From Fusobacterium perfoetens (GTDB lineage: Bacteria; Fusobacteriota; Fusobacteriia; Fusobacteriales; Fusobacteriaceae): DNA of 38,244 nucleotides. A program made the translations under genes and the position numbers. Within the stretch, counting starts at the first letter, position 1. Every line of letters begins with the position of its first letter. Shown here one piece after another: positions 1,934-31,748 of this stretch. The notes beneath the pieces were generated by a model. The model had not been told where the DNA came from. It was given only the letters and a program-made list of their open reading frames with translations, and searched no databases. The stretch is taken from positions 1 through 38,244 of the forward strand of contig NZ_JADYUD010000018.1 of the NCBI RefSeq assembly GCF_021531595.1. Direction: 5' to 3'.

Positions 1934-2099
1934 TTAAGAAGGGGAGATTTCTATGGGAAGAAAGCTGTGTAATAATTTTATAACTTAGTCTTTATTATAT
2001 TTTAAGAAGGGGAGATTTCTATGGGAAGAAAGCTGTGTAATAATTTTATAACTTAGTCTTTATTATATTTTAAGAAGGGGAGATTTCTATGGGAAGAAA
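1934..2099 (+). repeat. 68-bp tandem duplication of SD and start region
   Basis: Units 1934-2001 and 2002-2069 are identical, and the first 30 bp of a third copy (2070-2099) form the real SD and first codons of the autotransporter gene. Each complete unit carries the SD aaggggag, an ATG (1953, 2021) and an 11-codon ORF, MGRKLCNNFIT, ending in TAG (1988, 2056). The period of 68 is not a multiple of three, so copies cannot fuse in frame. Ribosomes would meet two equally good starts before the true one at 2089. Confidence 0.95.
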
Positions 2100-5000
2100 C
2101 TATGCAGAAAATTCATTAAAAAAATTTCTTAAAAGAAAAGTAAAAATTACAATGGGGGTTGTGGTTTCATTTTTAATTACAGGGGCAGTGGCTTTTGGTG
2201 CTGAACCTCAAGAACCTACCATTAATGCAGATGGAGCATATATTCCATATAACAAATGGACTCAGGGAATAGGAAAAACTGAGGAGATTTTAAAAGATGA
2301 TATTATTTGGAATGGACAGGAAATTTTAAAAGCAGATGATGTAAATAATTTATCAAAATATATGGGAGAAGAAACAAAAAAAATTATTAAAAGTTCATCT
2401 CTTTTATGGAAAAATTCTGTAAATGCAGGAAATTCTGGAAATAATTATACTATTTCAGGAGAATTATTTGGAGATAATGGAAATTATTCAGCAGGTTTAT
2501 CTTATACAGGAGACAATATAATCAAAGCAGGAGAAACAAGAAGTGAATTTTCTTTAGAAAGAGTTTTTGTGAATAAAACAGAAATATATTATGCTGCTCA
2601 AGTTGCAAGAGATAATGAAACAGCAGTGAATAAAGGAATTATAACAGGAGGTAAACCATCAGGATTTACAGAGCCTACGGATGGTACTGCTTATGGAATA
2701 GGACAATATGCAGAGGGAGTAAATGCTAAAGTTTATAACTATGGAGTAATAAGCACATCTAATAATAATGGTCAAAGAGCAAGAGAGGGTGGAGAAGCTT
2801 ATAACTACGGTATAATTATAGGAAATATAAGTCAAGGACAAAATATTGTTGATTCATTTGGATATAACTATGGAATTATTGCTAACAATGGACAAAGAGG
2901 ACAGGCAGCAAACGGGATAGAAAGTTTTGTATATAATTATGGAGTTATAGCAAATAATAATCATATAGGACAATATGGAAATAATTTAATAAACTATGGA
3001 ATAATAAAAAATAATGGTAATGATGGACAATATGGAAATTTAAATGATACTAAAATATATAATTATGGTACTATAGCTAATAAAGGAGAATTAGGTCAAT
3101 ATATAGATTTTGGAACACATAATAATTATGGAGAAGCATATAATTATGGAATAATAGCTAATGAGGGCAAAAAAGGACAGGCTTTTATTTCAAATAAAAA
3201 TCAAGGAAAAATATATAATTATGGTATTATAGCTAATAAGGGAGATAAAGGACAAGAGCTAGGAGATAATGCAGGGGGAGCAATATCTGATGGAGTAAAA
3301 AGCTATAATTATGGAATTATTGCTAACACAGGTGGACTTGGAATTTTTACAGATGATGCAGGAGAATCTTTTAACTATGGTATAGTTGCAAATAAAGGAC
3401 AGTATTCTGTAGGAGGAACAGGAAGAATACATAATAATGGAATAGTAATAAATAATGATGACTCTTTTGCTAATATAGGAGATAAAGGAGAAAGCAAAAA
3501 TGTAAAAAATAATGGTGTTGTTATTTTAAAAAATACTGGAACAGGTTTTAAAGAAGCTTATAAACAACACAATAACGGAATAGAAATAAATGCTAAAGAT
3601 GAAAATAATATAACAATTTCAGAAATAGGAAAAAATATGCTTGTTGCTACTAATCAAAGTGATAATACAGTAACAGCAGATAAGAAATTTACAGGAGGAA
3701 TTTTAGCAGAAAATACAAACTTATTTGTTGACAGATATACAAAAGGTAAATTAACTGAAACAGTAACTCTTGATAATAAAACTTTAGCAGGAAATCATAT
3801 TACAACTGTTGTTGGAAAAGATGATAAAACTGATAAAGTTGTAATAAGCACAAAAGATGATTTAACTCTTACTGATTCTTCTATAGTTGGATATTTTGAA
3901 AAAGATGGAACTCTTTTAAATGTAAATGGAGATTTAACTCTTTCTGGAAATTCAGTTATTAATGCAATAGCAGGAAATGAATATACAGGATATAAAGGAA
4001 ACGCTCTTAATAATGTTGTTGCTGTAAAACTTAGCGATAATGGAACTTTAACAATAGAAGAAAATTCAAAAGTTCTTGGAGCAGTAAAAGGAAACGGAAC
4101 TCTTGTATATGAAAATATAGACGATGAATTTTATTCAAATACTCAAGAAGTTGACAGTGCAGTTATAAAAACAACAGCAGGAAAAACAACTGATATTACT
4201 CTTGCTAATTTAACTTTAAAAGACAGTGGTACAGGTGTTAATAATGCAGGAAAACTTATAATTGATAACCAATCAGATAAAGAATTAGAAGGAAAAGAAG
4301 TTTCTACAACTATTACTCTTGCTAATAATATTAATATTGAAAAAGGTATTGATGGAAGCAGTTCTAAACATGGAATTGAATTAATTCTTGGAGATGGACA
4401 AACTTCTTCTGATAATACAATAAGTGTTGATAGTATTACTCTTGGTACAGAAAGTGATATTTTAACAATAAATAATGCTCTTAAAGAAGTTGGAGTAATT
4501 GATGGAAAAGATGGAGACGATATTGTAAATCTTAAAAACTTAACAGGAACACATGATACTTTTGATTATCAACTAAAAAATATTGAAACTCTTGATTTAA
4601 ATAATCAAACTTGGAAAATAGGAGCAAAGGCAGATATAAGTTTTGATAATGGAATAACAAAAGCAGGAGAAAAAACAACTATCCAAAATGGTACTTTAAT
4701 GGGAGAACTTAAAGGAACTGTTGAAACAGGTGTAGATTTTGTAAATAATGAAGCTGTAAATAAAGTTATTGGAAATTCAACTTTTGGAGATAATGCTAAA
4801 TTCCAAATTGGTATTGGAAAAGATATGGAACTTGTTGCAGGAGGAGAATACGATATAGCTGATACTACAGTTAATAATTTAAAAGATAATGTAGGAGAAA
4901 AAAATATAACAGCTTCTGCAATATTTACAAAAGCAACTGAACAAGGAAAAGATATCAGAGTAAAATCTACAAAAGAAATGAATATTGATGAAAGATATTC

Positions 5001-5991
5001 AGGAATCTATGAAGAAATGCTTGAAAATGCTTCTTCAAACAGTGAAATCTTAAATGTTTTAAATAGTACTGATGTTTCATCTATTGCAAATGCAATTAAT
5101 GAAAAAGGTGCTTTAGGAGATACTCTTGCAACTACAGGATACAAAATTACAAGAGATATTTCTAACTCATTTATGAGTGCTGTAAATGAATGGGGTAAAA
5201 AAGCAAATAAAGGTGAATGGCTTGCTAATGCAAAATATATAAATTCTGATGTTGAATATGACGGAGCAAACAAAGTTAAAGGATATGACAGCGATATTAA
5301 ATCAATGGTTGGTATGATTGAATACGGTGTATCTGATAATACATCTTTAGGAATTGCTCTTGGAGGAGGAGACACAGAAATTGATGTTAAAGATGCAGGA
5401 ACTCTTAAAGGAGATAACTACTATATAGGAGCTTATGCAAAACATTCTGTAAATGGATTTGATTTAACAGGAAACTTAGGATATACAATAAGTGATTTAG
5501 AAGTAAATGGAAAAGGAAGTGCTGATTCTTCTGCAATAACTTTAGGAGGATATATTAAAAGAGATATAGCTCTTACAGAAACAGTAAGACTTGAACCAAA
5601 CTTATCATTTACTTATGACTATATTATGCAGGATAATGCAGAAGGAAACGGAGTAAAAGTAGATAATAAAGATGTCCATGTATTTGAAGCAGGTGCAGGA
5701 ATGAACATAGTAAAAGGATTTAACTTTGAAAAAGGAGTTCTTGAACTTGAAGCAGGAGTAAAATACTCAATGGCTGATGTAAACAGAAATGAAGAAACTG
5801 TAATATCTGTTTACGGAATAGATGATATTAATTTAGGAAATCCTGAAGTAGATAAAACAAGAGGAACTGCTCATGTAGGATTTGACTATGAACATGAAAC
5901 AGGTTTCGGAGTAAATGGAAAATATGAAATGATGTGGAGTGATTCTGGAGACGACTCAAGATTAACAGCAGGAATCTCTTACAGATTTTAA
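2089..5991 (+). CDS. Autotransporter (type Va secretion) with NYG-repeat passenger
   Basis: This 1300-residue surface protein begins with an extended basic leader and a signal-peptide core (KRKVKITMGVVVSFLITG, cleavage probably after AFG near residue 38). Residues about 213-430 hold around ten copies of a motif close to YGIIANxGxxGQ, spaced roughly 20-30 residues apart, then degenerate NGIVI copies to about 500. This is the pattern of a beta-helical passenger. Residues about 600-1000 are further Thr/Asn/Gly-rich passenger. The last 255 or so (from WLANAKYINSD) match the 12-strand autotransporter barrel and end in ISYRF, with the terminal Phe needed for outer-membrane assembly. No protease triad or RGD site is evident, so adhesin is the default guess. 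The start follows an aaggggag SD that is duplicated upstream. Confidence 0.9.
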   Translation: MGRNYAENSLKKFLKRKVKITMGVVVSFLITGAVAFGAEPQEPTINADGAYIPYNKWTQGIGKTEEILKDDIIWNGQEILKADDVNNLSKYMGEETKKIIKSSSLLWKNSVNAGNSGNNYTISGELFGDNGNYSAGLSYTGDNIIKAGETRSEFSLERVFVNKTEIYYAAQVARDNETAVNKGIITGGKPSGFTEPTDGTAYGIGQYAEGVNAKVYNYGVISTSNNNGQRAREGGEAYNYGIIIGNISQGQNIVDSFGYNYGIIANNGQRGQAANGIESFVYNYGVIANNNHIGQYGNNLINYGIIKNNGNDGQYGNLNDTKIYNYGTIANKGELGQYIDFGTHNNYGEAYNYGIIANEGKKGQAFISNKNQGKIYNYGIIANKGDKGQELGDNAGGAISDGVKSYNYGIIANTGGLGIFTDDAGESFNYGIVANKGQYSVGGTGRIHNNGIVINNDDSFANIGDKGESKNVKNNGVVILKNTGTGFKEAYKQHNNGIEINAKDENNITISEIGKNMLVATNQSDNTVTADKKFTGGILAENTNLFVDRYTKGKLTETVTLDNKTLAGNHITTVVGKDDKTDKVVISTKDDLTLTDSSIVGYFEKDGTLLNVNGDLTLSGNSVINAIAGNEYTGYKGNALNNVVAVKLSDNGTLTIEENSKVLGAVKGNGTLVYENIDDEFYSNTQEVDSAVIKTTAGKTTDITLANLTLKDSGTGVNNAGKLIIDNQSDKELEGKEVSTTITLANNINIEKGIDGSSSKHGIELILGDGQTSSDNTISVDSITLGTESDILTINNALKEVGVIDGKDGDDIVNLKNLTGTHDTFDYQLKNIETLDLNNQTWKIGAKADISFDNGITKAGEKTTIQNGTLMGELKGTVETGVDFVNNEAVNKVIGNSTFGDNAKFQIGIGKDMELVAGGEYDIADTTVNNLKDNVGEKNITASAIFTKATEQGKDIRVKSTKEMNIDERYSGIYEEMLENASSNSEILNVLNSTDVSSIANAINEKGALGDTLATTGYKITRDISNSFMSAVNEWGKKANKGEWLANAKYINSDVEYDGANKVKGYDSDIKSMVGMIEYGVSDNTSLGIALGGGDTEIDVKDAGTLKGDNYYIGAYAKHSVNGFDLTGNLGYTISDLEVNGKGSADSSAITLGGYIKRDIALTETVRLEPNLSFTYDYIMQDNAEGNGVKVDNKDVHVFEAGAGMNIVKGFNFEKGVLELEAGVKYSMADVNRNEETVISVYGIDDINLGNPEVDKTRGTAHVGFDYEHETGFGVNGKYEMMWSDSGDDSRLTAGISYRF

Positions 5992-14637: not shown

Positions 14638-16968
14638 ATGATAAATAAAAATATAGTGCCAATGATAAAAGAGTTTAACCTTGTAGACGAAGTACAGAAG
14701 GGGAATTTCGGCCTTGAAAAAGAAAATCTTAGAGTAGACCAAAATGGGCATTTAGCTCTTACACCACATCCTGCTGTATTTGGAGATAAAAAGAAAAATC
14801 CTTATATAACAGTTGATTTTTCTGAAAGTCAGGTTGAAATGATAACACCATCTTTTAAAAAAGTAAAAGATGCTTATTATTTTATGGAGAATCTTCATGA
14901 TATAGTGACAGAAAATTTAGATGAAGAATATTTATGGCCTCAGAGTCTTCCTCCTGTAATTCCAGAAGAAGATAAAATTCCTGTGGCACAGTTTCAGCAG
15001 GATAAAGCAAGTGAAGAATACAGAGATAACCTTGCTAAAAAATATGGTAAATATCTTCAGCTTCTTTCAGGAATACACTATAATTTTTCTTTTGATACAG
15101 ATTTTTTAAAAGAATTTTATGAGAAGTTAAATAAGGGAGAAAGCTATAAAGAATTTAAAAATAATCTTTATATGAAGGTTGCAAGAAACTATATGAAACA
15201 CAGCTGGCTTCTTGTTTATCTTTTAGGAGCAAGTGGAGTGGTTCACAAGTCTTATAATCCAAATTGTATTGCAAAGCTTCAGACTTTTGATAAAGATTTA
15301 TATTATTTTGAAAATGGAATTTCTTTCAGAAATAGTATTTGTGGATATAGAAATAAAAAAGAACTTTATGTGTCACACAATTCTCTTGAAGAATACATAG
15401 GAGATTTAAAAAAATATATTGCAGAGGGAACAATTCAAGGGGCAAGAGAATATTACAGTTCACTTAGACTTAAATCAAAAGATGCAAGTGATCTTTTAGG
15501 TTCACTTGAAAAAGATGGTATAGAATATCTTGAAGTAAGAAGCATAGATTTAAATCCTTTTGCAAGAATTGGAATAGAACTTGAAGATATGGAATTTATT
15601 CATCTTTTCCTTATGCATATGCTTCTTAAAGGGGAATGTTCATTTACAAAAGAAGATTATCTTGCAGCAAAAGAAAATGAAAAAATGCTTGCAACACACG
15701 GTCTTGATAAAGAATTTACTTTAACAGGAGTATGTGGAGGTACATTTAAAGTAACAGATCTTGTTATTGCAATCTTTAATGAAATGATAACAAACTTTAA
15801 AGAACTTGGAATTTATGATGAGCATATGGAAAAAATATTTGAATTCCAGTTTAAAAAAGTTTACGATGTTAAAAACCTTTATTTAAATAGATTATTAGAA
15901 GCTGTAAAATCTGAAGGATATATTGATTTTCATCTTCATGTAGCAGAAAAATCTTTAGAATATACAAAGAAAAACAGCTTTAGTCTAAAAAATTATGAAG
16001 ACATGGAACTTTCTACTCAAATTCTTATAAGAGATGCTATAAAAAGAGGGGTAAAATTTGAGATAGCAGACAGAACAGAAAACTTTATTTCCCTTTCAAA
16101 AAATGGAAAGAAAGAATATGTAAAACAAGCTACTAAAACTTCAAAAGATTCATATATAAGCATGCTTATTATGGAAAACAAAGTTGTTTCTAAGAAAGTT
16201 TTAAGTGAACATGGAATTAAAGTTCCTGATGGAAGCAATTATGACAGTATAAAAGAAGCAGAAAAGGACTTTAAAAAATTTGAAGGTAAGAAGATTGTAG
16301 TAAAACCAAAATCTACAAACTTTGGACTTGGAATTTCTATATTCCAAAATGGTTTCACTGAAGAAGAATATAAAAAAGCATTGGAAATAGCATTCTCTGA
16401 AGATAAATCTGTTCTTGTTGAAGAGTTTATTACAGGAAGAGAGTTTAGATTCCTAGTTATAGGAAATGAAGTTGCAGGAATATTACACAGAGTTCCTGCC
16501 AATGTAACAGGAGATGGAAAACTTACTATAAGAGAATTAGTTGAGATAAAGAATAAAAGTTATTTAAGAGGAACACATTATGAAAAACCTCTTCAAAAAA
16601 TAAAACTTGGAGAAATAGAAGAACTTCTTCTTGCTAATCAAGGAAAAGATTTTGATTATATTCCAGCAAAAGATGAAACAGTGTATTTAAGAGAAAATTC
16701 TAATATCAGTACAGGAGGGGATAGTATAGACTTTACAGATGAAATCCCTGAAGTATATAAAGAAATAGCAATAAGAGCAGCAAAAAGTGCTGATGTTACT
16801 TTCTGTGGTGTTGATATTATGATAGATGATATAACTAAAGAAAATCCAGAAGGAAACTATGCAGTTATAGAAATAAACTTTAACCCTGCTATTCATATTC
16901 ACTGTTATCCAGCAGTTGGAAAAAACAGAAAAATTGGAGATAAAATTCTTGATGTTTTAGGATTCTAA
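14638..16968 (+). CDS. gshAB: Bifunctional glutamate-cysteine ligase/glutathione synthetase
   Basis: This 776-residue fusion carries out both steps of glutathione synthesis. The N-terminal half (about 1-460) is a GshA-type ligase, with FGLEKENLRV near the start and the glutamate/cysteine pocket. The C-terminal half (about 490-776) is an ATP-grasp domain replacing classical GshB, with KKIVVKPKSTNFGLGI, EEFITGREFRFLVIG and the late Mg2+ site EINFNPAIH. Length matches GshAB/GshF of other bacteria. The start is fixed by an aggagg SD 4 nt upstream. It is the second gene of a MATE-gshAB operon and ends at a strong terminator. Confidence 0.96.
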   Translation: MINKNIVPMIKEFNLVDEVQKGNFGLEKENLRVDQNGHLALTPHPAVFGDKKKNPYITVDFSESQVEMITPSFKKVKDAYYFMENLHDIVTENLDEEYLWPQSLPPVIPEEDKIPVAQFQQDKASEEYRDNLAKKYGKYLQLLSGIHYNFSFDTDFLKEFYEKLNKGESYKEFKNNLYMKVARNYMKHSWLLVYLLGASGVVHKSYNPNCIAKLQTFDKDLYYFENGISFRNSICGYRNKKELYVSHNSLEEYIGDLKKYIAEGTIQGAREYYSSLRLKSKDASDLLGSLEKDGIEYLEVRSIDLNPFARIGIELEDMEFIHLFLMHMLLKGECSFTKEDYLAAKENEKMLATHGLDKEFTLTGVCGGTFKVTDLVIAIFNEMITNFKELGIYDEHMEKIFEFQFKKVYDVKNLYLNRLLEAVKSEGYIDFHLHVAEKSLEYTKKNSFSLKNYEDMELSTQILIRDAIKRGVKFEIADRTENFISLSKNGKKEYVKQATKTSKDSYISMLIMENKVVSKKVLSEHGIKVPDGSNYDSIKEAEKDFKKFEGKKIVVKPKSTNFGLGISIFQNGFTEEEYKKALEIAFSEDKSVLVEEFITGREFRFLVIGNEVAGILHRVPANVTGDGKLTIRELVEIKNKSYLRGTHYEKPLQKIKLGEIEELLLANQGKDFDYIPAKDETVYLRENSNISTGGDSIDFTDEIPEVYKEIAIRAAKSADVTFCGVDIMIDDITKENPEGNYAVIEINFNPAIHIHCYPAVGKNRKIGDKILDVLGF

Positions 16969-17059: not shown

Positions 17060-17102
17060 TTAGCACTCATCGCTTGACATTGCTAACAGAAAGATATATA
17101 AT
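17060..17102 (+). promoter_or_regulatory. Heat-shock promoter with a CIRCE-like HrcA operator
   Basis: The left arm ttagcactc (17060-17068) is a perfect CIRCE half. After exactly 9 nt the right arm cattgctaa (17078-17086) matches gagtgctaa at 7 of 9. It overlaps an exact TTGACA (17074-17079), 17-nt spacer, TATAAT (17097-17102). HrcA bound there would block RNA polymerase until heat stress. The right-arm mismatches fall where the -35 box must be kept. Confidence 0.75.
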
Positions 17103-17179
17103 AATCTTGTAAATAAGGAAAAGGATGTTGGGATAAACAGAAAAACAAATATAATGTATATCAAAAGGAGATGGTGTAT

Positions 17180-17605
17180 ATGTTTATGCCAAGTATTTTT
17201 AATAAAGGATTTATAGATGATGTTTTTGATGATGATTTCTTTGTGGATTCAAAAAGCAGAAAAGCAATAGGAAATACAGATATCAAAGAACTGGAAGATA
17301 AATATGAATTAGAAGTTGAACTTCCTGGATTTACAAAAGAAGATATAAAAGCTGAAGTAAATAATGGATATCTTGTAATAAGTGCTGCTCATAATGAAAA
17401 CAAAGAAGAAAAAAATTCAGAAGGAAGATATATAAGAAAGGAAAGATATACAGGACAATGTATGAGAAGCTTCTATGTAGGAAATCATCTTAACGAAGAA
17501 GATATCAAAGCTAAATTTGAAAATGGTATCTTAAAATTAGAAGTTTCTAAAAAAGAAGCTCAACCTAAAGTAGAAGAAAAGAAATATATTCAAATAGAAG
17601 GATAA
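17180..17605 (+). CDS. Hsp20 family small heat-shock protein
   Basis: A 141-residue alpha-crystallin-type chaperone. The alpha-crystallin domain spans about residues 35-130, with the LEVELPGFTKEDIKAEV strand pair, the conserved AxFENGILKLEV motif and a short C-terminal tail. Such proteins hold unfolding proteins for refolding by DnaK/ClpB. The start is placed at 17180, 9 nt after an aggag SD; an in-frame ATG at 17171 overlaps that spacing and is too close to the SD. The upstream CIRCE-like element implies HrcA control. Transcribed alone. Confidence 0.93.
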   Translation: MFMPSIFNKGFIDDVFDDDFFVDSKSRKAIGNTDIKELEDKYELEVELPGFTKEDIKAEVNNGYLVISAAHNENKEEKNSEGRYIRKERYTGQCMRSFYVGNHLNEEDIKAKFENGILKLEVSKKEAQPKVEEKKYIQIEG

Positions 17606-17620
17606 AACAAAATAGTATAT

Positions 17621-17654
17621 AAGAAGATTAAAAAAATATAAAAAATCTTCTTTT
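17621..17654 (+). terminator. Terminator of the hsp20 gene
   Basis: Stem aagaagatt (17621-17629) with aatcttctt (17644-17652) and a short T-run. Moderate strength. Confidence 0.6.
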
Positions 17655-17748
17655 AGAAAAAATTACATATATATAATATAGAATAAAGATATAAAAGCTA
17701 TATTATACAAAATAGAAATAAAAGGATATACTTATCAATAATAATTTT

Positions 17749-17918
17749 AGATAGAGGTGCAGATGACAAAAGTAGCTTTGTTGAGTGGCGGTCATGTTGA
17801 GACAAAGTGAAAGGGGAATTTGCCGAAATGGAAATTTTAACCGAAAAAAATTTCTATTGGCGATATAAATAATATTTATATTGCTGTCATTGAAAATATT
17901 TTCAATGGAGTGCTATCT
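17749..17918 (+). ncRNA. Lysine riboswitch (L box) aptamer
   Basis: The helix P1 is formed by agatag (17749-17754) and ctatct (17913-17918). Between them lie the conserved L-box blocks in order: agaggtgc, agta, aaaggggaa, tgccgaa, ttgg, ctgtcattg and gagtgctatct. This is the Rfam lysine-riboswitch pattern of five helices around one junction. Lysine binding should stabilise P1 and leave the downstream terminator free to form. Without lysine, tctgtgaa (from 17916) can pair with ttcatcacag to disrupt the terminator. Confidence 0.92.
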
Positions 17919-17964
17919 GTGAAAGATAATTTTAAATTTATTTGTAAGTATATTTGAAAATTTC

Positions 17965-18002
17965 ATCACAGTTTAGTAGAACCTAAACTGTGATTTTTTT
18001 TA
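17965..18002 (+). terminator. Riboswitch expression-platform terminator
   Basis: A perfect 12-bp stem, atcacagtttag (17965-17976) with ctaaactgtgat (17983-17994), followed by eight T. It ends 12 nt before the start codon, with the SD aaggagg after it. Confidence 0.88.
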
Positions 18003-18014
18003 TAAGGAGGAAAG

Positions 18015-19355
18015 ATGAGATTAGTAATTAACAACGGGCTTATAATTGATCCTAAAAACAAAATTTTTACACAATTAAATATTGCTGTAGAAGATGGAAA
18101 GGTAAAGGAATTATCAAAGGAAACTTTAAAAGGAGATTGTGAAATAGATGCTGCTGGGCTTTGTGTTACTCCAGGATTTGTAGATATACATATGCATGAA
18201 GATCCAATTGTAGATGATAAAATAAAATTAAATATTTTTAATAGAATGTTAAAGATGGGTGTTACAACAGTTATTGGAGGAAACTGTGGGATAGGAACTA
18301 ATGATCCAAAAAGATACTTTGAACTTTTAAATGAAGGAAATCCTGTAAATTGTGGACTTCTTCTTCCTCATTCAATACTTAGAGAATATATTGGAGCAAA
18401 AGACAGATATGAAAGCTTAGAGCCTGATGATATAGAAAAAATGTATCAGTATGGTAAAAAATTAATGAAAGAAAATAAATTTTTTGGTGTTAGTTTTGGA
18501 ATAAGATATGTTCCTGGAATGGATTTTAATGAGCTTATAAATATTGCAAAACTTGGAGCGGGAAAGGTTGTTGCAGCTCATATAAGAGATGATGCAGAAA
18601 ATGTTTATGGTGCTGTAGAAGAATTTCTTGAAATAGGAGATTATATAAAAACTCATCTTCAAGTTTCTCATATAGGAAGCATGGGTGGTTTTGGACAGAT
18701 AGATAAAGTTTTTCAAATTATAGATGAAAAAAGAGCTAAGGGAATAGATGTATCTTGTGATTGCTATCCATATTCAGCATTTAGTACTAAAATAGGTGAA
18801 ACAACTTTTGATGAAGGATTTATAGAAAGATATAATACAGGATATGAAAGCCTTGAAGTTATGGAAGGAGAATTTAAAGGAAAAAGATGTACAGAAGAAA
18901 TGTTCTTTAAAATAAGAAAAGAACATCCAGAGACAATGATGGTAGGACATCTTATGAATTCTGAAGATATAGAAAAAGCCCTTTTAAATCCAAATACAGT
19001 TGTAGCAAGTGATGGTATTCTTGGAATAAATGGAGACGGACACCCAAGAGCTGCTGGAAGTTTCCCAAGATTTTTAGCAAAATATGTAAGAGATAAAAAA
19101 TTAATGTCTTTATATGAAGGAATTGAAAAAATTACTTATGCACCTGCAAAATTATATAAGATTAACAAAGGTGGACTTTCAATAGGTGATGATGGAGATA
19201 TTACAATATTTTCTTTAGAAGAATTAGAAGATATGGCAACTTTTGCAGAAAATGGACTTTCTCCTAAAGGAATAAAATATGTAATTATTAATGGAGAAAT
19301 AGCAGTTAAAAATGATGAAATTATAAATGGAAAATTAGGAACAGCATTAAGATAA
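18015..19355 (+). CDS. N-acyl-D-amino-acid deacylase-like amidohydrolase
   Basis: A 446-residue TIM-barrel amidohydrolase closest in pattern to D-aminoacylase. Visible metal and catalytic residues are H59 and H61 (in DIHMHED), C91 (in GGNCGIG, the cysteine bridging ligand of D-aminoacylases), H189, H219 (in QVSHIGS), H312 (in VGHLMN) and D333 (in ASDGI). The family hydrolyses N-acyl-D-amino acids or related N-acyl compounds. It is the first gene behind a lysine riboswitch, followed 15 nt later by an NhaC-type transporter. I infer that it releases lysine, or feeds lysine supply, from an N-acylated or D-lysine derivative. Family is secure; substrate is inference. Confidence 0.87.
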   Translation: MRLVINNGLIIDPKNKIFTQLNIAVEDGKVKELSKETLKGDCEIDAAGLCVTPGFVDIHMHEDPIVDDKIKLNIFNRMLKMGVTTVIGGNCGIGTNDPKRYFELLNEGNPVNCGLLLPHSILREYIGAKDRYESLEPDDIEKMYQYGKKLMKENKFFGVSFGIRYVPGMDFNELINIAKLGAGKVVAAHIRDDAENVYGAVEEFLEIGDYIKTHLQVSHIGSMGGFGQIDKVFQIIDEKRAKGIDVSCDCYPYSAFSTKIGETTFDEGFIERYNTGYESLEVMEGEFKGKRCTEEMFFKIRKEHPETMMVGHLMNSEDIEKALLNPNTVVASDGILGINGDGHPRAAGSFPRFLAKYVRDKKLMSLYEGIEKITYAPAKLYKINKGGLSIGDDGDITIFSLEELEDMATFAENGLSPKGIKYVIINGEIAVKNDEIINGKLGTALR

Positions 19356-19370
19356 CATCAGGGAGGAAAT

Positions 19371-20741
19371 ATGGAATTAGGATTTATATCAGTTATAGCA
19401 CCAGTTGTTACTATTGGGCTTGCTTTAATAACAAAAAATGTTTTTTTATCTTTATTAATAGGAGTTTTTCTAGGAAAATTTATTTTAAGTGGATATAACT
19501 TAATTGGTGGAGTAGACGCTACACTTTATTCTTTAGTAGATCAGTTTAAAAGCAGTTCAAATACAATAGTAATATTTTCAATTATAATGCTTGGAGGACT
19601 TATAAAATTAATTGAAGATAATGGTGGAGTAAGTGGATTTGTAAATTATCTTACTAAAAAAAGTGGAATAATAAAAACTAAAAGAGGAGCTAATTTTTTT
19701 ACATGGCTTATAGGAGTTTTAGTTTTTACTTCAGGAACAGTAAGCTGTTTAGTAACAGGAGCTGTATCAAGACCTTTAAATGATGCAATGGGTGTTGCTC
19801 CTGAAAAATCAGCATATATAGTTCATACAACATCAACTCCAGTATGTGTTCTTCTTCCATTAAGTGGCTGGGGAGCTTTTATGATAGGATTACTGCAAGG
19901 TTCTGGAGTAGAAAATGCTCCTGAAATTTTAGTAAGAAGTATATATCTTAACTTTTATTGTATGATAGCAGTTGTTGGAACTTTCTTTTTAATATTACTG
20001 CAAAAAGATTTTGGGCCAATGAAAGAAGCTGTTATAAATTTCAAAGGTGTAGAAGCAATAAATAATGAAAATGTAAAAATAGATGGAAAAATGAGTGTAC
20101 TTCTTTTACCTCTTCTTACAATGATAGGAACAATTCTTACAGTTCTTTTTATAACAGGAAAAGGAGATATGATAAAAGGAGATGGATACAAGGCAATTCT
20201 TTGGGGAATCTTTTTAGCTATTTTTGTTGTAGTGACTATTTTAAAAATTTATAAAATAAGAGATATAAAAGATTCTTTAGATACTTTCTTTAAAGGTGCT
20301 GGTGGAACATTATCAATGGCAACAGTTCTTTTATTTGCTTTTGCAATGGGAGGAACAGTAAAAGATTTAGGTACAGGATTATATCTTGCAGAAATTTTTT
20401 CTAAGCTTTTAAATCCTGCTTTACTTCCTACAATAATTTTTATTATTGCATGCCTTATTTCTTTTACGACAGGTACTTCAATGGGAACAATGGCAGTTAC
20501 AATGAGCCTTGCAATTCCTATGGCATTAAGAATGAATGTTGATATTGCACTTACTGCAGCAGCTGTTTTTGGAGGAAGTATATTTGGAGACCATTCTTCT
20601 CCTATATCAGATACAAGTATTCTTTCTTGTTCAACTACAGGATGCAATATCATAAAACATGTTAAAACACAAATGCCTTATACTCTTACATTTGCAGTTA
20701 TAACTATAATTTTGTATCTTGTTTTAGGATTTATAATGTAA
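19371..20741 (+). CDS. NhaC-family Na+/H+ antiporter-like transporter, probable lysine transporter
   Basis: A 456-residue integral membrane protein with about 11-12 helices and the NhaC-superfamily signatures FTSGTVSCLVTGAVSRPLND and FGGSIFGDHSSPISDTSILS. NhaC-like proteins behind lysine riboswitches have been proposed as lysine transporters (often called LysW), so amino-acid/Na+ exchange is more likely than pH homeostasis here. It follows the deacylase by 15 nt with its own ggagg SD, under the same riboswitch. It may import the acylated or D-form substrate used by the deacylase, or lysine itself. Genome tools will probably label it simply NhaC. Confidence 0.85.
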   Translation: MELGFISVIAPVVTIGLALITKNVFLSLLIGVFLGKFILSGYNLIGGVDATLYSLVDQFKSSSNTIVIFSIIMLGGLIKLIEDNGGVSGFVNYLTKKSGIIKTKRGANFFTWLIGVLVFTSGTVSCLVTGAVSRPLNDAMGVAPEKSAYIVHTTSTPVCVLLPLSGWGAFMIGLLQGSGVENAPEILVRSIYLNFYCMIAVVGTFFLILLQKDFGPMKEAVINFKGVEAINNENVKIDGKMSVLLLPLLTMIGTILTVLFITGKGDMIKGDGYKAILWGIFLAIFVVVTILKIYKIRDIKDSLDTFFKGAGGTLSMATVLLFAFAMGGTVKDLGTGLYLAEIFSKLLNPALLPTIIFIIACLISFTTGTSMGTMAVTMSLAIPMALRMNVDIALTAAAVFGGSIFGDHSSPISDTSILSCSTTGCNIIKHVKTQMPYTLTFAVITIILYLVLGFIM

Positions 20742-20801
20742 ATAAATTTTTTTGATTATTTTATGGTGCTCTAAAACTTTTATAAGGGACGGGGAGAGGA
20801 A

Positions 20802-21491
20802 ATGTTTGCTATATTTCTTAATGGATTTGCTATATGTTTAGGTGGATTTCTTGGATATTTTTTTAAAAATCATAGTTCTTTAAAATTAAGTAGAGCTATT
20901 ATTATTGTTATGGGATTTCAAATTTTTGCAATGGGAATAAAAGATGCTATTCATTATGAAAATGGAATGTTGAATGTTATTTATTTGGTAATTGGTACTG
21001 TTATTGGAGAGATAGTTGATATTGACAAAAAATTAAAATCTATGGCTTTATTTTTTCAAAATAAATTTGCAAAAAATAGTCATGGCTTTGTAAACGGCTT
21101 TATTACTGCTACTCTTATTTTTTGTATAGGTTCAATGGCTGTTATAGGCCCTTTGAAAATTGCACTTGAAAAAGACAGCAGTATCATATATATAAAAGCA
21201 ATCTTAGATGGAATTATGGCAATGTTTCTTGCTTCAACTTATGGTTTAGGAGTTTTATTCTCAGCAATTATAGTTATAATTTATCAAGGAGGGATTTTCT
21301 TACTTGCAGAAATTTTAAAAACAGCAACAGATCCTCATGTATTAAATCAGCTTTCATCAATAGGAGGAGTTCTTTTGACAGGGCTTGCATTTACTTTTAT
21401 TTTTGAAAAAACTGATATAAAAATAAGTAATATGCTTCCTGCAATGCTTATTCCTGTTTTAGTAGCTATTATAAAAAATATTTTTGTATAA
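20802..21491 (+). CDS. DUF554 family membrane protein (YdfK/YqgA-like)
   Basis: A 229-residue membrane protein with about seven hydrophobic helices and the DUF554 features GTVIGEIVDIDKKLK and FCIGSMAVIGPLK. Function of the family is not established; transport is suspected. It lies 60 nt after the NhaC-type gene on the same strand with no terminator between, so it is probably the third gene of the riboswitch operon, though a separate promoter cannot be excluded. The SD is ggggagagg before 20802. Confidence 0.85.
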   Translation: MFAIFLNGFAICLGGFLGYFFKNHSSLKLSRAIIIVMGFQIFAMGIKDAIHYENGMLNVIYLVIGTVIGEIVDIDKKLKSMALFFQNKFAKNSHGFVNGFITATLIFCIGSMAVIGPLKIALEKDSSIIYIKAILDGIMAMFLASTYGLGVLFSAIIVIIYQGGIFLLAEILKTATDPHVLNQLSSIGGVLLTGLAFTFIFEKTDIKISNMLPAMLIPVLVAIIKNIFV

Positions 21492-21577
21492 AAATTTTGA
21501 GAAAATTTTATAGAAAATACGAATATACTTTAATATATTAAGCAAAAAGTTGCTATAAAAATTACATTTCCTTTTTC

Positions 21578-21606
21578 TTTACAACTTTATATAAATGTGT
21601 TATCAT
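21578..21606 (+). promoter_or_regulatory. Promoter of the antiterminator gene
   Basis: TTTACA (21578-21583), 17 nt, TATCAT (21601-21606). It sits 116 bp before the GTG start. I found no antiterminator RNA site in this leader. Confidence 0.55.
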
Positions 21607-21721
21607 TTATGAAGCGAATATTTGGAAAAAAGAGATGTTGTTTTTAAATTTTATTTTTTCTTAAAAAGTACAAAATGTTTAATATTAAAAATAGAGAGAA
21701 AATAAAAGATAGGGGGGCTTT

Positions 21722-22558
21722 GTGCGTGTATTAAAGATTTTAAATAATAATGCCTTTATTTCCCAAGATGAGAATAATGAAGAAATTGTTGTTATGGGAA
21801 GAGGAATCGGATTTCAGAGAAAAGTGAATGATGAAATTCAAATGTCCGAAGGAATGAAAATTTTTTCCAATAAAGATAATGGGTTAAATGAAAAATTAAA
21901 AGAAGTTATCTCAAATATTCCAGAAAATTATATTGAAATAACAGAGAAAATTGTAAATATTTTAAAAGAAAAATATAATAAAGAATTACATAATATTATT
22001 TATGTTTCTCTTACAGAGCATATTCATAGTGCTGTAGAAAGATTTAAAAATGGAATAGAAATAAAAAATCCTTTGCTTAATGAAATAAAGCGTCTTTATA
22101 AAGATGAATATGATGTTTCTTTAGAAGCTTTAGAAATTATAAGAAAAGAATTAGGAATTGCTTTTACAAAAGATGAAGCAGGATATATAACAAACCATAT
22201 TATAAATGCTCAGCTTGATGGAAGCATGAATAATACAGCAGAAATAACAAGAATAGCACAAAAAATCTTAAATATAATAGAATATAATATGCTTATAACT
22301 ATAAATGAAGAAACAATGTCATATTATAGAATAGTAACACATTTAAAATTTTTAGCATTAAGAATGATTAATGGAACAGTAAACGATGAAGATGATGATC
22401 TTTTTGAAATGTTAAAAGTTAAATATCCTAAGTGCTATAAATGTGTTTCAATAATAAATGAATTTAGTAAAACAAATTATGATTATGAACTAACAAATGC
22501 AGAACAAATGTATTTGATAATATATATTCAAAGATTATGTAAAGAATCAACTAAATAA
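21722..22558 (+). CDS. LicT/BglG-family transcriptional antiterminator
   Basis: A 278-residue regulator with an N-terminal RNA-binding CAT domain (about 1-55, with NNNAFI and VVMGRGIGFQ) and two PTS regulation domains. PRD1 has H100 and H159. PRD2 has H207, but the position of LicT H269 is Tyr268 (LIIYIQRL instead of LTIHIERV), so one HPr/EII phosphorylation site is missing. The start is a GTG after a gggggg SD; the N-terminus aligns with LicT there. It precedes a beta-glucoside PTS gene whose leader carries a matching RNA target (22598-22642), so it should activate that gene when beta-glucosides are present. Confidence 0.93.
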   Translation: MRVLKILNNNAFISQDENNEEIVVMGRGIGFQRKVNDEIQMSEGMKIFSNKDNGLNEKLKEVISNIPENYIEITEKIVNILKEKYNKELHNIIYVSLTEHIHSAVERFKNGIEIKNPLLNEIKRLYKDEYDVSLEALEIIRKELGIAFTKDEAGYITNHIINAQLDGSMNNTAEITRIAQKILNIIEYNMLITINEETMSYYRIVTHLKFLALRMINGTVNDEDDDLFEMLKVKYPKCYKCVSIINEFSKTNYDYELTNAEQMYLIIYIQRLCKESTK

Positions 22559-30533: not shown

Positions 30534-31748
30534 TTAAATTAAAATTTTTCCATTTTGACACCAAAAAATTTCAAGAGGTTTTTTCTGTGAAGAAAATTGC
30601 ATTGGGGATAAAACAGAAGCATAAGCACCTGCATTTGAAATTATTAATATATCATCATATTCTAATTGTGGTAAAATAACATCTTCAGCTATAACATCTG
30701 TTGCTGTACAAAGATTTCCAACAATAGTTACTTTTTCACAAAGATTGCTATTTTTTAATGTAGAAATTTCAAAAGCATCTATTTTAGTAAATAGAGGTTC
30801 TTTTGCAACAGGCTCTTCATCTTTTGTATAACTAGAAACTAATTTAGCAATAGATGGACGGAAAAATCCATTTAATGTATTTTTAACTATGATATATGTT
30901 TTTCCATAAGATATTTTTTTGTCTAATACTTTTGTAACATATACACCGTTATTTCCTACGAGATATCTTCCTGTTTCTATTATGAATTTAATATTTGGGT
31001 AATCTTTTTTAAAATTTTTAATTGCCTTTTCTGTTCTTTCTCCTAAATACTTAATATCTAAAGATTTATCGCTTTTAGAATAAGGAATTCCTATTCCAGA
31101 TCCCATATTGATATATTCTAAGTTTACATTATTAAATGTAGATAATTTTTTTGCCATTTTCATAATATTATTATAATATTTTTCCAACAAAGAAGCTTCA
31201 AGTTCTTGACTTCTTAAGTGAACATGAATTCCACAGATTGATATTTTTGAAGTCTTATATTTTTGTAAATATTCATAAATCTGTTCTTCATCTATTCCAA
31301 ATTTAGAAGAACTTCCGACTTCTCCATTAAAAGAGAAAGAAGGATTAATACGAACTCCTATTTTAATAATGTAATCTTTTTTTTCAGCAATAGCTTCAAT
31401 TTTTTTTATTTCATTAAAACTATCAGCAATTAGTATTGCATTATCAATAGAATTTTCAATATCTTCTGTGGTCTTTCCAGGAGCTGAGTAAAAAATTTCT
31501 TCTTTTTTTAGTCCATGTTTTTCAGCTAAAAGTACTTCTCCTAAACTAGCAGCATCTGCTCCAATTCCAGAATTAAAAATTGATTTTAAAATATGCTCAT
31601 TTGAATTGCATTTTACTGAATATAAAAATTTGACACTTGGAAAAGAATTTTTTAAATTTTCTATTTGAGAAAGTATACCTTTTTCTGAATATAGATAAAA
31701 ATTATCATATTTTTTTGAAATATCAGATACTATATTGTTCCAGTCCAT
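30534..31748 (-). CDS. Fold-III PLP-dependent decarboxylase (ornithine/diaminopimelate decarboxylase family)
   Basis: A 404-residue enzyme of the alanine-racemase-fold decarboxylase group. The PLP lysine is K46 (in LYSVKCNSN). Other signs are the HVH barrel motif, the MGSGIG phosphate-binding region, the EXGRYLV block, a CTATD motif near the C-terminus (family CxxxD) and NAGAY. These enzymes decarboxylate basic amino acids such as diaminopimelate, ornithine and arginine, or their conjugates. It lacks the close LysA sequence signatures, so I do not name it lysA; polyamine or special-metabolite synthesis is equally possible. It has its own extended -10 promoter (about 31832) and is on the same strand as the creatininase and solute-binding genes. 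Confidence 0.8.
   Translation of the reverse strand: MDWNNIVSDISKKYDNFYLYSEKGILSQIENLKNSFPSVKFLYSVKCNSNEHILKSIFNSGIGADAASLGEVLLAEKHGLKKEEIFYSAPGKTTEDIENSIDNAILIADSFNEIKKIEAIAEKKDYIIKIGVRINPSFSFNGEVGSSSKFGIDEEQIYEYLQKYKTSKISICGIHVHLRSQELEASLLEKYYNNIMKMAKKLSTFNNVNLEYINMGSGIGIPYSKSDKSLDIKYLGERTEKAIKNFKKDYPNIKFIIETGRYLVGNNGVYVTKVLDKKISYGKTYIIVKNTLNGFFRPSIAKLVSSYTKDEEPVAKEPLFTKIDAFEISTLKNSNLCEKVTIVGNLCTATDVIAEDVILPQLEYDDILIISNAGAYASVLSPMQFSSQKKPLEIFWCQNGKILI

Follow-up and report, generated by a model that had tools for sequence, protein, structure and literature searches.

What a lysine-sensing RNA might control when the gene behind it resembles a deacylase is the question raised by a locus of Fusobacterium perfoetens, located within the 38,244-nt stretch of DNA analyzed here (contig NZ_JADYUD010000018.1 of RefSeq assembly GCF_021531595.1, positions 1 to 38,244 of the forward strand; hereafter the window). 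Lysine riboswitches (L boxes) are commonly taken to govern the synthesis, transport by carriers or fermentation of lysine. In the window, an L box precedes a gene for a metal-dependent amidohydrolase of the D-aminoacylase fold (hereafter AMH), followed by genes for an NhaC-superfamily transporter and a DUF554 protein. We give about even odds (a probability of roughly 0.5) to a reading in which the AMH–NhaC unit is a lysine-repressed salvage cassette for lysine or diaminopimelate (DAP), whereby a compound would be imported and hydrolyzed at a D-configured amino acid, and the product would enter DAP/lysine metabolism.

A preliminary description of this locus, made from the sequence alone, had placed a lysine riboswitch before the amidohydrolase gene, and this was borne out by cmscan. 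Positions 17744–17923 (forward strand) match RF00168 with 128.7 bits (gathering score 30, E 2e-34) over the full model (1–182), which is the sole Rfam match across the entire window and the highest of all L box scores among the 98 Fusobacteriota genomes searched. The aptamer has its conserved core columns in common with 16 other L boxes and ends 92 bases 5′ of the open reading frame (ORF) encoding AMH (18015–19355), with ORFs 19371–20741 and 20802–21491 next on the same strand. By its score, the element is a strong lysine riboswitch, and its RNA would be expected to respond to lysine. As a rough estimate, a given gene has a chance of ∼5e-4 of carrying one of the four L boxes of this genome on its own strand, no more than 500 bp upstream.

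The 3′ arm of the P1 helix (CTATCTGTGA, 17913–17922, forward strand) is common to the ligand-bound P1 helix and to a predicted antiterminator, in which it pairs with the 5′ arm of an intrinsic terminator. Since both duplexes need positions 17913–17922, they are mutually exclusive, with computed energies of −7.3 kcal/mol for P1 and −12.1 kcal/mol for the antiterminator, and a transcript ending at the terminator 5′ arm adopts the antiterminator fold. The terminator hairpin (17965–17994, forward strand; 12 pairs, 6-nt loop, ∼ −14 kcal/mol), followed by a T tract, is the single terminator-like site within positions 17100–21760, and similar terminators lie 3′ of several of the L boxes of other AMH loci described below (those of the lysA–AMH operons of genus mates and the one preceding AMH in locus L153). 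This geometry of P1, antiterminator and terminator predicts a standard OFF switch, in agreement with the earlier expectation that the genes are on when lysine is scarce. Without lysine, the P1 3′ arm would pair with the terminator 5′ arm and allow read-through into the AMH and NhaC genes, whereas with lysine P1 would form, the terminator would be freed and transcription would stop.

The enzyme encoded by the first controlled gene (18015–19355, forward strand; 446 amino acids) is assigned by Pfam to the amidohydrolases (PF07969/PF01979). The nine top Foldseek matches in the PDB to its AlphaFold2 model (mean predicted local distance difference test score 95.0, from a 41-row alignment) are all D-aminoacylases, an N-acyl-D-Glu deacylase or the deacetylase OngB, which are also its nearest solved proteins (TM 0.84–0.88, 22–26% identity). 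As claimed in the preliminary description, all metal ligands are in place: the metal and catalytic set is complete (6/6; H59, H61, C91, H189, H219 and D333) and follows the subtype V amidohydrolase pattern of an HxH motif, a bridging Cys, two His and a catalytic Asp. AMH thus has the fold, the Cys/His/His metal site and the catalytic Asp in common with AfDam (1m7j), BbDam (3gip) and the GlcNAc1A deacetylase OngB (PMC12017989), as well as the Tyr/Ser/Arg anchors, with AfDam Y192, Y283, S289 and R377 matching AMH Y165, Y251, S257 and R345. In contrast, the substrate-carboxylate lysine of AfDam (K252), described as strictly conserved across the three known groups (PMC12017989), aligns to G221 of AMH and is Gly in 41/41 homologs, and the side-chain pocket residue F191 aligns to R164, which is Arg or Lys in 41/41. 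AMH is also shorter (446 versus 480–489 amino acids), being devoid of the loops after the metal Cys, and scores below the curated cut-off of the nearest NCBIfam model, NF006560 (PRK09061; 235.6 versus 340 bits).

By virtue of these two pocket exchanges, which set it apart from the three characterized groups, AMH is, at the sequence level, a distinct subfamily within the D-aminoacylase fold. The Arg/Lys in the pocket could bind a second substrate carboxylate or replace the function of the missing Lys, and for what would be a hydrolytic enzyme acyl-lysine is no more likely a substrate than an acidic compound (DAP, D-Glu). UacY, which acts in uric acid degradation, is likewise a D-aminoacylase-fold enzyme of anaerobes with a new substrate, but reportedly retains the D-aminoacyl-binding residues of 3GIQ (PMC12507026), whereas AMH lacks the Lys.

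The second gene (19371–20741, forward strand) encodes a 456-amino acid protein matching Na_H_antiporter (PF03553, 148.8 bits). Its suggested placement in a family proposed to carry lysine holds at the level of the NhaC superfamily, which takes in proposed lysine carriers (PMC5584792), but not below it. The window NhaC is ∼32% identical to the L-box NhaC of its own genome (LysW type, G000:C4; G, C and L numbers are our labels for genomes, contigs and loci) and 31–34% to those of genus mates, versus 46–56% to AMH-adjacent NhaCs in other phyla. The best match in a related genus reached 40%, and none among the 14 related genomes exceeded this value. A LysW-type protein would be expected to be closest to the L-box NhaC of its own genome or genus, and the window NhaC is not. 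For the LysW type itself, lysine transport is a proposal, and PMC11477304 gives the function of the family as unknown. A search with a profile of the AMH-linked NhaCs gave no hit among solved structures.

Both proteins of the window match other AMH–NhaC pairs at 46–58%. Because the transporter is close to the AMH-linked set and distant from its counterparts in genus mates, AMH and NhaC appear to form a conserved pair, either older than the lineage or transferred into it. Accordingly classified with the AMH-partner clade, the window NhaC would be the partner of AMH rather than simply 'the lysine transporter', presumably importing the AMH substrate, and it cautions against taking every L-box NhaC for a lysine importer.

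The third gene (20802–21491, forward strand) encodes a DUF554 membrane protein (PF04474, 207.8 bits versus a Pfam cut-off of 25.1). As no terminator-like site separates it from the NhaC gene in the scanned interval (17100–21760), it is by position probably co-transcribed with AMH–NhaC. However, its proposed membership in the same route had to be abandoned, since the linkage is not conserved: no DUF554 homolog occurs at any other AMH locus, and in genus mates the DUF554 gene lies elsewhere.

L boxes at the loci of relatives were determined with a covariance model built in this analysis and with Rfam, a simple motif search having missed true boxes and returned false ones; in genus mates, they are visible only in stretches long enough to pass lysA. 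In four genus mates (G001, G002, G003 and G005), an AMH homolog (56–59% identity) lies directly behind lysA in the order nrdD-lysA-AMH-nrdG, and a lysine riboswitch is found just before lysA in each. Counting the window, all genus members found with AMH thus have the gene downstream of an L box, in one or the other of two different layouts.

Scanning a wider collection yielded 80 further AMH loci, mostly from Clostridia but also from Negativicutes, Synergistaceae and Marinifilum. An L box lies directly upstream of AMH in one Synergistaceae genome (L153/L210) and in one other genome (L180/L233); L153 shows the AMH–NhaC order of the window, while in L180 AMH is followed by an S58 peptidase and a peptide ABC transporter. 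A further, family-wide search brought the Synergistaceae genomes with an L box directly before AMH to two (the second being L209). For a 50-genome set, two direct placements were observed versus 0.008 expected under a rough model. At least three separated lineages, namely Fusobacteriota, Synergistota and a clostridial-type lineage, have acquired or retained the L-box link. The preliminary description had named the lack of a conserved riboswitch linkage as part of what would count against its proposal; a linkage does recur, in genus mates, Synergistaceae and L180. In a separate case (L164, 9460–9627), the L box is positioned just behind AMH and runs into the annotated start of an S58-peptidase-like gene; a peptide ABC transporter comes next, and the arrangement can be read as L-box control of peptide uptake.

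The genes that travel with AMH point to DAP and murein rather than to lysine itself. An NhaC homolog is present downstream of AMH in 28/80 loci, with two more members of the NhaC cluster (L191 and L198) being LysW-like and on the other strand. LysA adjoins AMH at seven loci from several lineages (5/5 of those tested exceed the TIGR01048 cut-off), DapF lies directly before AMH–NhaC in L168 and L171, and in L169, L186 and L207 AMH is immediately preceded by an M20 protein and aminotransferase A. The frequency of lysA/dapF neighbors is above rough expectation, and no lysine racemase or other lysine-specific gene recurs among the neighbors of AMH. In a conserved-group test on the AMH tree, NhaC and LysA neighbors were clustered, with about four changes each, such that neither arrangement reflects a single event.

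Murein-peptide genes accompany AMH in L134, L138 and L136. The L134 cluster comprises a peptide ABC transporter, LysA, AMH, Beta-lactamase2, an enolase-type epimerase, NlpC/P60 and an M55 D-aminopeptidase, to which L138 adds an LD-carboxypeptidase (S66) and a dipeptidase (M19). To our knowledge, the Bacillus dpp-ykf operon contains neither AMH nor LysA. The peptide ABC transporter, enolase-type epimerase, NlpC/P60 and M55 D-aminopeptidase of L134 are nevertheless the same kinds of genes as those of dpp-ykf murein-peptide catabolism (YkfC, PMC2954226); the window locus has AMH and NhaC only. Other AMH neighbors include APC, YfcC and peptide ABC transporters and sigma-54-type regulators. As a side observation, a Fusobacteriaceae L box (L109, 1501–3000) directly precedes an SpmA/SpmB-like pair that is 58–66% identical to the pair 3′ of AMH in L138 (9428–10584), possibly a lysine- or DAP-related transporter.

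The genome under study (2.06 Mb, 36 contigs) places its other L boxes before lysC-asd-dapA-dapB-dapH-aminotransferase A (L041), before an ArcD/NhaC-like transporter (L042) and before a 537-amino acid NhaC (L043), whereas lysA and dapF are found side by side on contig C2 with no L box. Seven M20 proteins are encoded, one of them adjoining the L-box dap operon. In L042 (3829–8858), the ArcD/NhaC-like transporter gene behind the L box is followed on the same strand by genes for an aminotransferase-like protein and a 574-amino acid protein. Since this organism can make lysine on paper, the AMH–NhaC unit would provide an additional, auxiliary lysine supply.

These observations are consistent with a model in which the NhaC-type carrier would import a small amide-bearing compound derived from peptidoglycan turnover or food peptides, cytoplasmic AMH would use its Cys/His/His metal site and catalytic Asp to cut the amide beside a D-configured amino acid, and the product would join the lysine pool, most likely via DAP and LysA. 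The AMH substrate would probably be DAP- or murein-derived; we prefer such amides over acyl-lysine because of the LysA, DapF, M20/aminotransferase A and murein-peptide neighbors of AMH. Several observations weigh against the salvage model. The lysA-linked AMHs of genus mates (L035 1069–2409, L037 8635–9975, L038 8272–9612 and L039 9434–10774) are devoid of two metal ligands (H59D and C91S, turning HxH into DxH and the bridging Cys into Ser) while keeping the rest of the metal site, and as judged from these exchanges may have altered metal use or function, maybe another chemistry. Roughly 90% of the AMH loci sampled lack a nearby L box, and as most also lack a DAP gene, AMH may serve a broader function in D-amino-acid metabolism. 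Finally, the genome encodes the DAP–lysine route, including lysA, dapF and M20 candidates, so salvage is not required.

Along these lines, AMH might be a general nutritional N-acyl-D-amino-acid (or D-peptide) hydrolase, placed under the L box in a few lineages because a shortage of lysine announces amino-acid hunger in general, or via insertion behind an L box that formerly drove another lysine gene. The many loci without an L box, with their varied transporters (NhaC, APC, YfcC, peptide ABC) and sigma-54-type regulators, fit such a role, but the recurrence of the L-box link in at least three separated lineages and the surplus of lysA/dapF neighbors do not, and we consider it unlikely. Less probable still is the substrate put forward in the preliminary description, according to which NhaC would import acetylated or D-lysine derivatives and AMH, as an N-acyl-D-lysine or N-acyl-lysine deacylase, would free lysine directly. 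Riboswitch control, the D-aminoacylase fold and a transporter superfamily with proposed lysine carriers (PMC5584792) all accord with it; however, a basic residue at position 164 and a Gly in place of the carboxylate Lys do not favor a cationic side chain, and the neighboring genes belong to DAP and murein metabolism. Of the salvage route as first described, the tie to lysine or peptidoglycan was hence retained, while acyl-lysine was ranked behind acidic DAP/D-Glu amides as a candidate substrate.

A step in lysine biosynthesis, for instance as a substitute N-acetyl-DAP deacetylase, would explain the L box–lysA–AMH operons and the DapF and aminotransferase A neighbors. Yet the M20 proteins that this genome encodes (one of them next to the L-box dap operon), and those beside AMH elsewhere (L169, L186 and L207), suggest that this step is already filled, and its natural substrate has an LL centre rather than a D centre. 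AMH as a replacement for the M20 enzyme was dropped as a first choice on these grounds, and we regard a biosynthetic role as very improbable. The salvage reading can also be extended: AMH would then found a new functional subfamily cutting the amide at the D centre of murein compounds (such as one that joins a D-alanyl or other acyl group to D-Glu or to the D centre of meso-DAP), DAP would be passed to LysA, and L boxes would control a dedicated cell-wall lysine salvage in several phyla. This extension is tentative, and we would sooner bet against it than for it; if true, peptidoglycan recycling would be tied to lysine supply under riboswitch control.

Published cases already include L boxes ahead of NhaC genes and, in Clostridioides difficile, one ahead of yfcC and an M20D amidohydrolase (PMC5584792, PMC11477304). 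The L boxes known upstream of lysW/nhaC, lysP, yvsH and dap genes (PMC5584792) have the aptamer family, the transcription-termination OFF design and, in part, an NhaC-superfamily target in common with the window, which differs in having a D-aminoacylase-fold hydrolase as its first gene and an NhaC of a clade separate from the genome's own L-box NhaC. The C. difficile unit (PMC11477304) likewise combines a transporter with an amide hydrolase under an L box, and probably embodies the same physiological idea, although the M20D fold is unrelated to AMH and the transporter is YfcC. Thermotogales L-box dap operons end in an 'amidohydrolase' whose family is not named in the text (PMC5584792). In a partial literature search, which did not extend to the locus list of Rodionov 2003, we found no account of a D-aminoacylase-fold enzyme encoded behind an L box. 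Through its ligand, the L box ahead of AMH gives a hint about an enzyme subfamily without an assigned function and about its transporter clade.

Elsewhere in the window, positions 30534–31748 encode a LysA-like pyridoxal phosphate-dependent decarboxylase with TIGR03099 as its best match (below cut-off), which is not lysA and adjoins genes for a creatininase-family protein and an amino-acid ABC transporter. A bifunctional glutathione synthase, GshAB (14638–16968; 988.8 bits versus a cut-off of 425), is encoded upstream of an Hsp20 gene, and positions 2089–5991 encode a 1300-amino acid autotransporter with a C-terminal beta domain.

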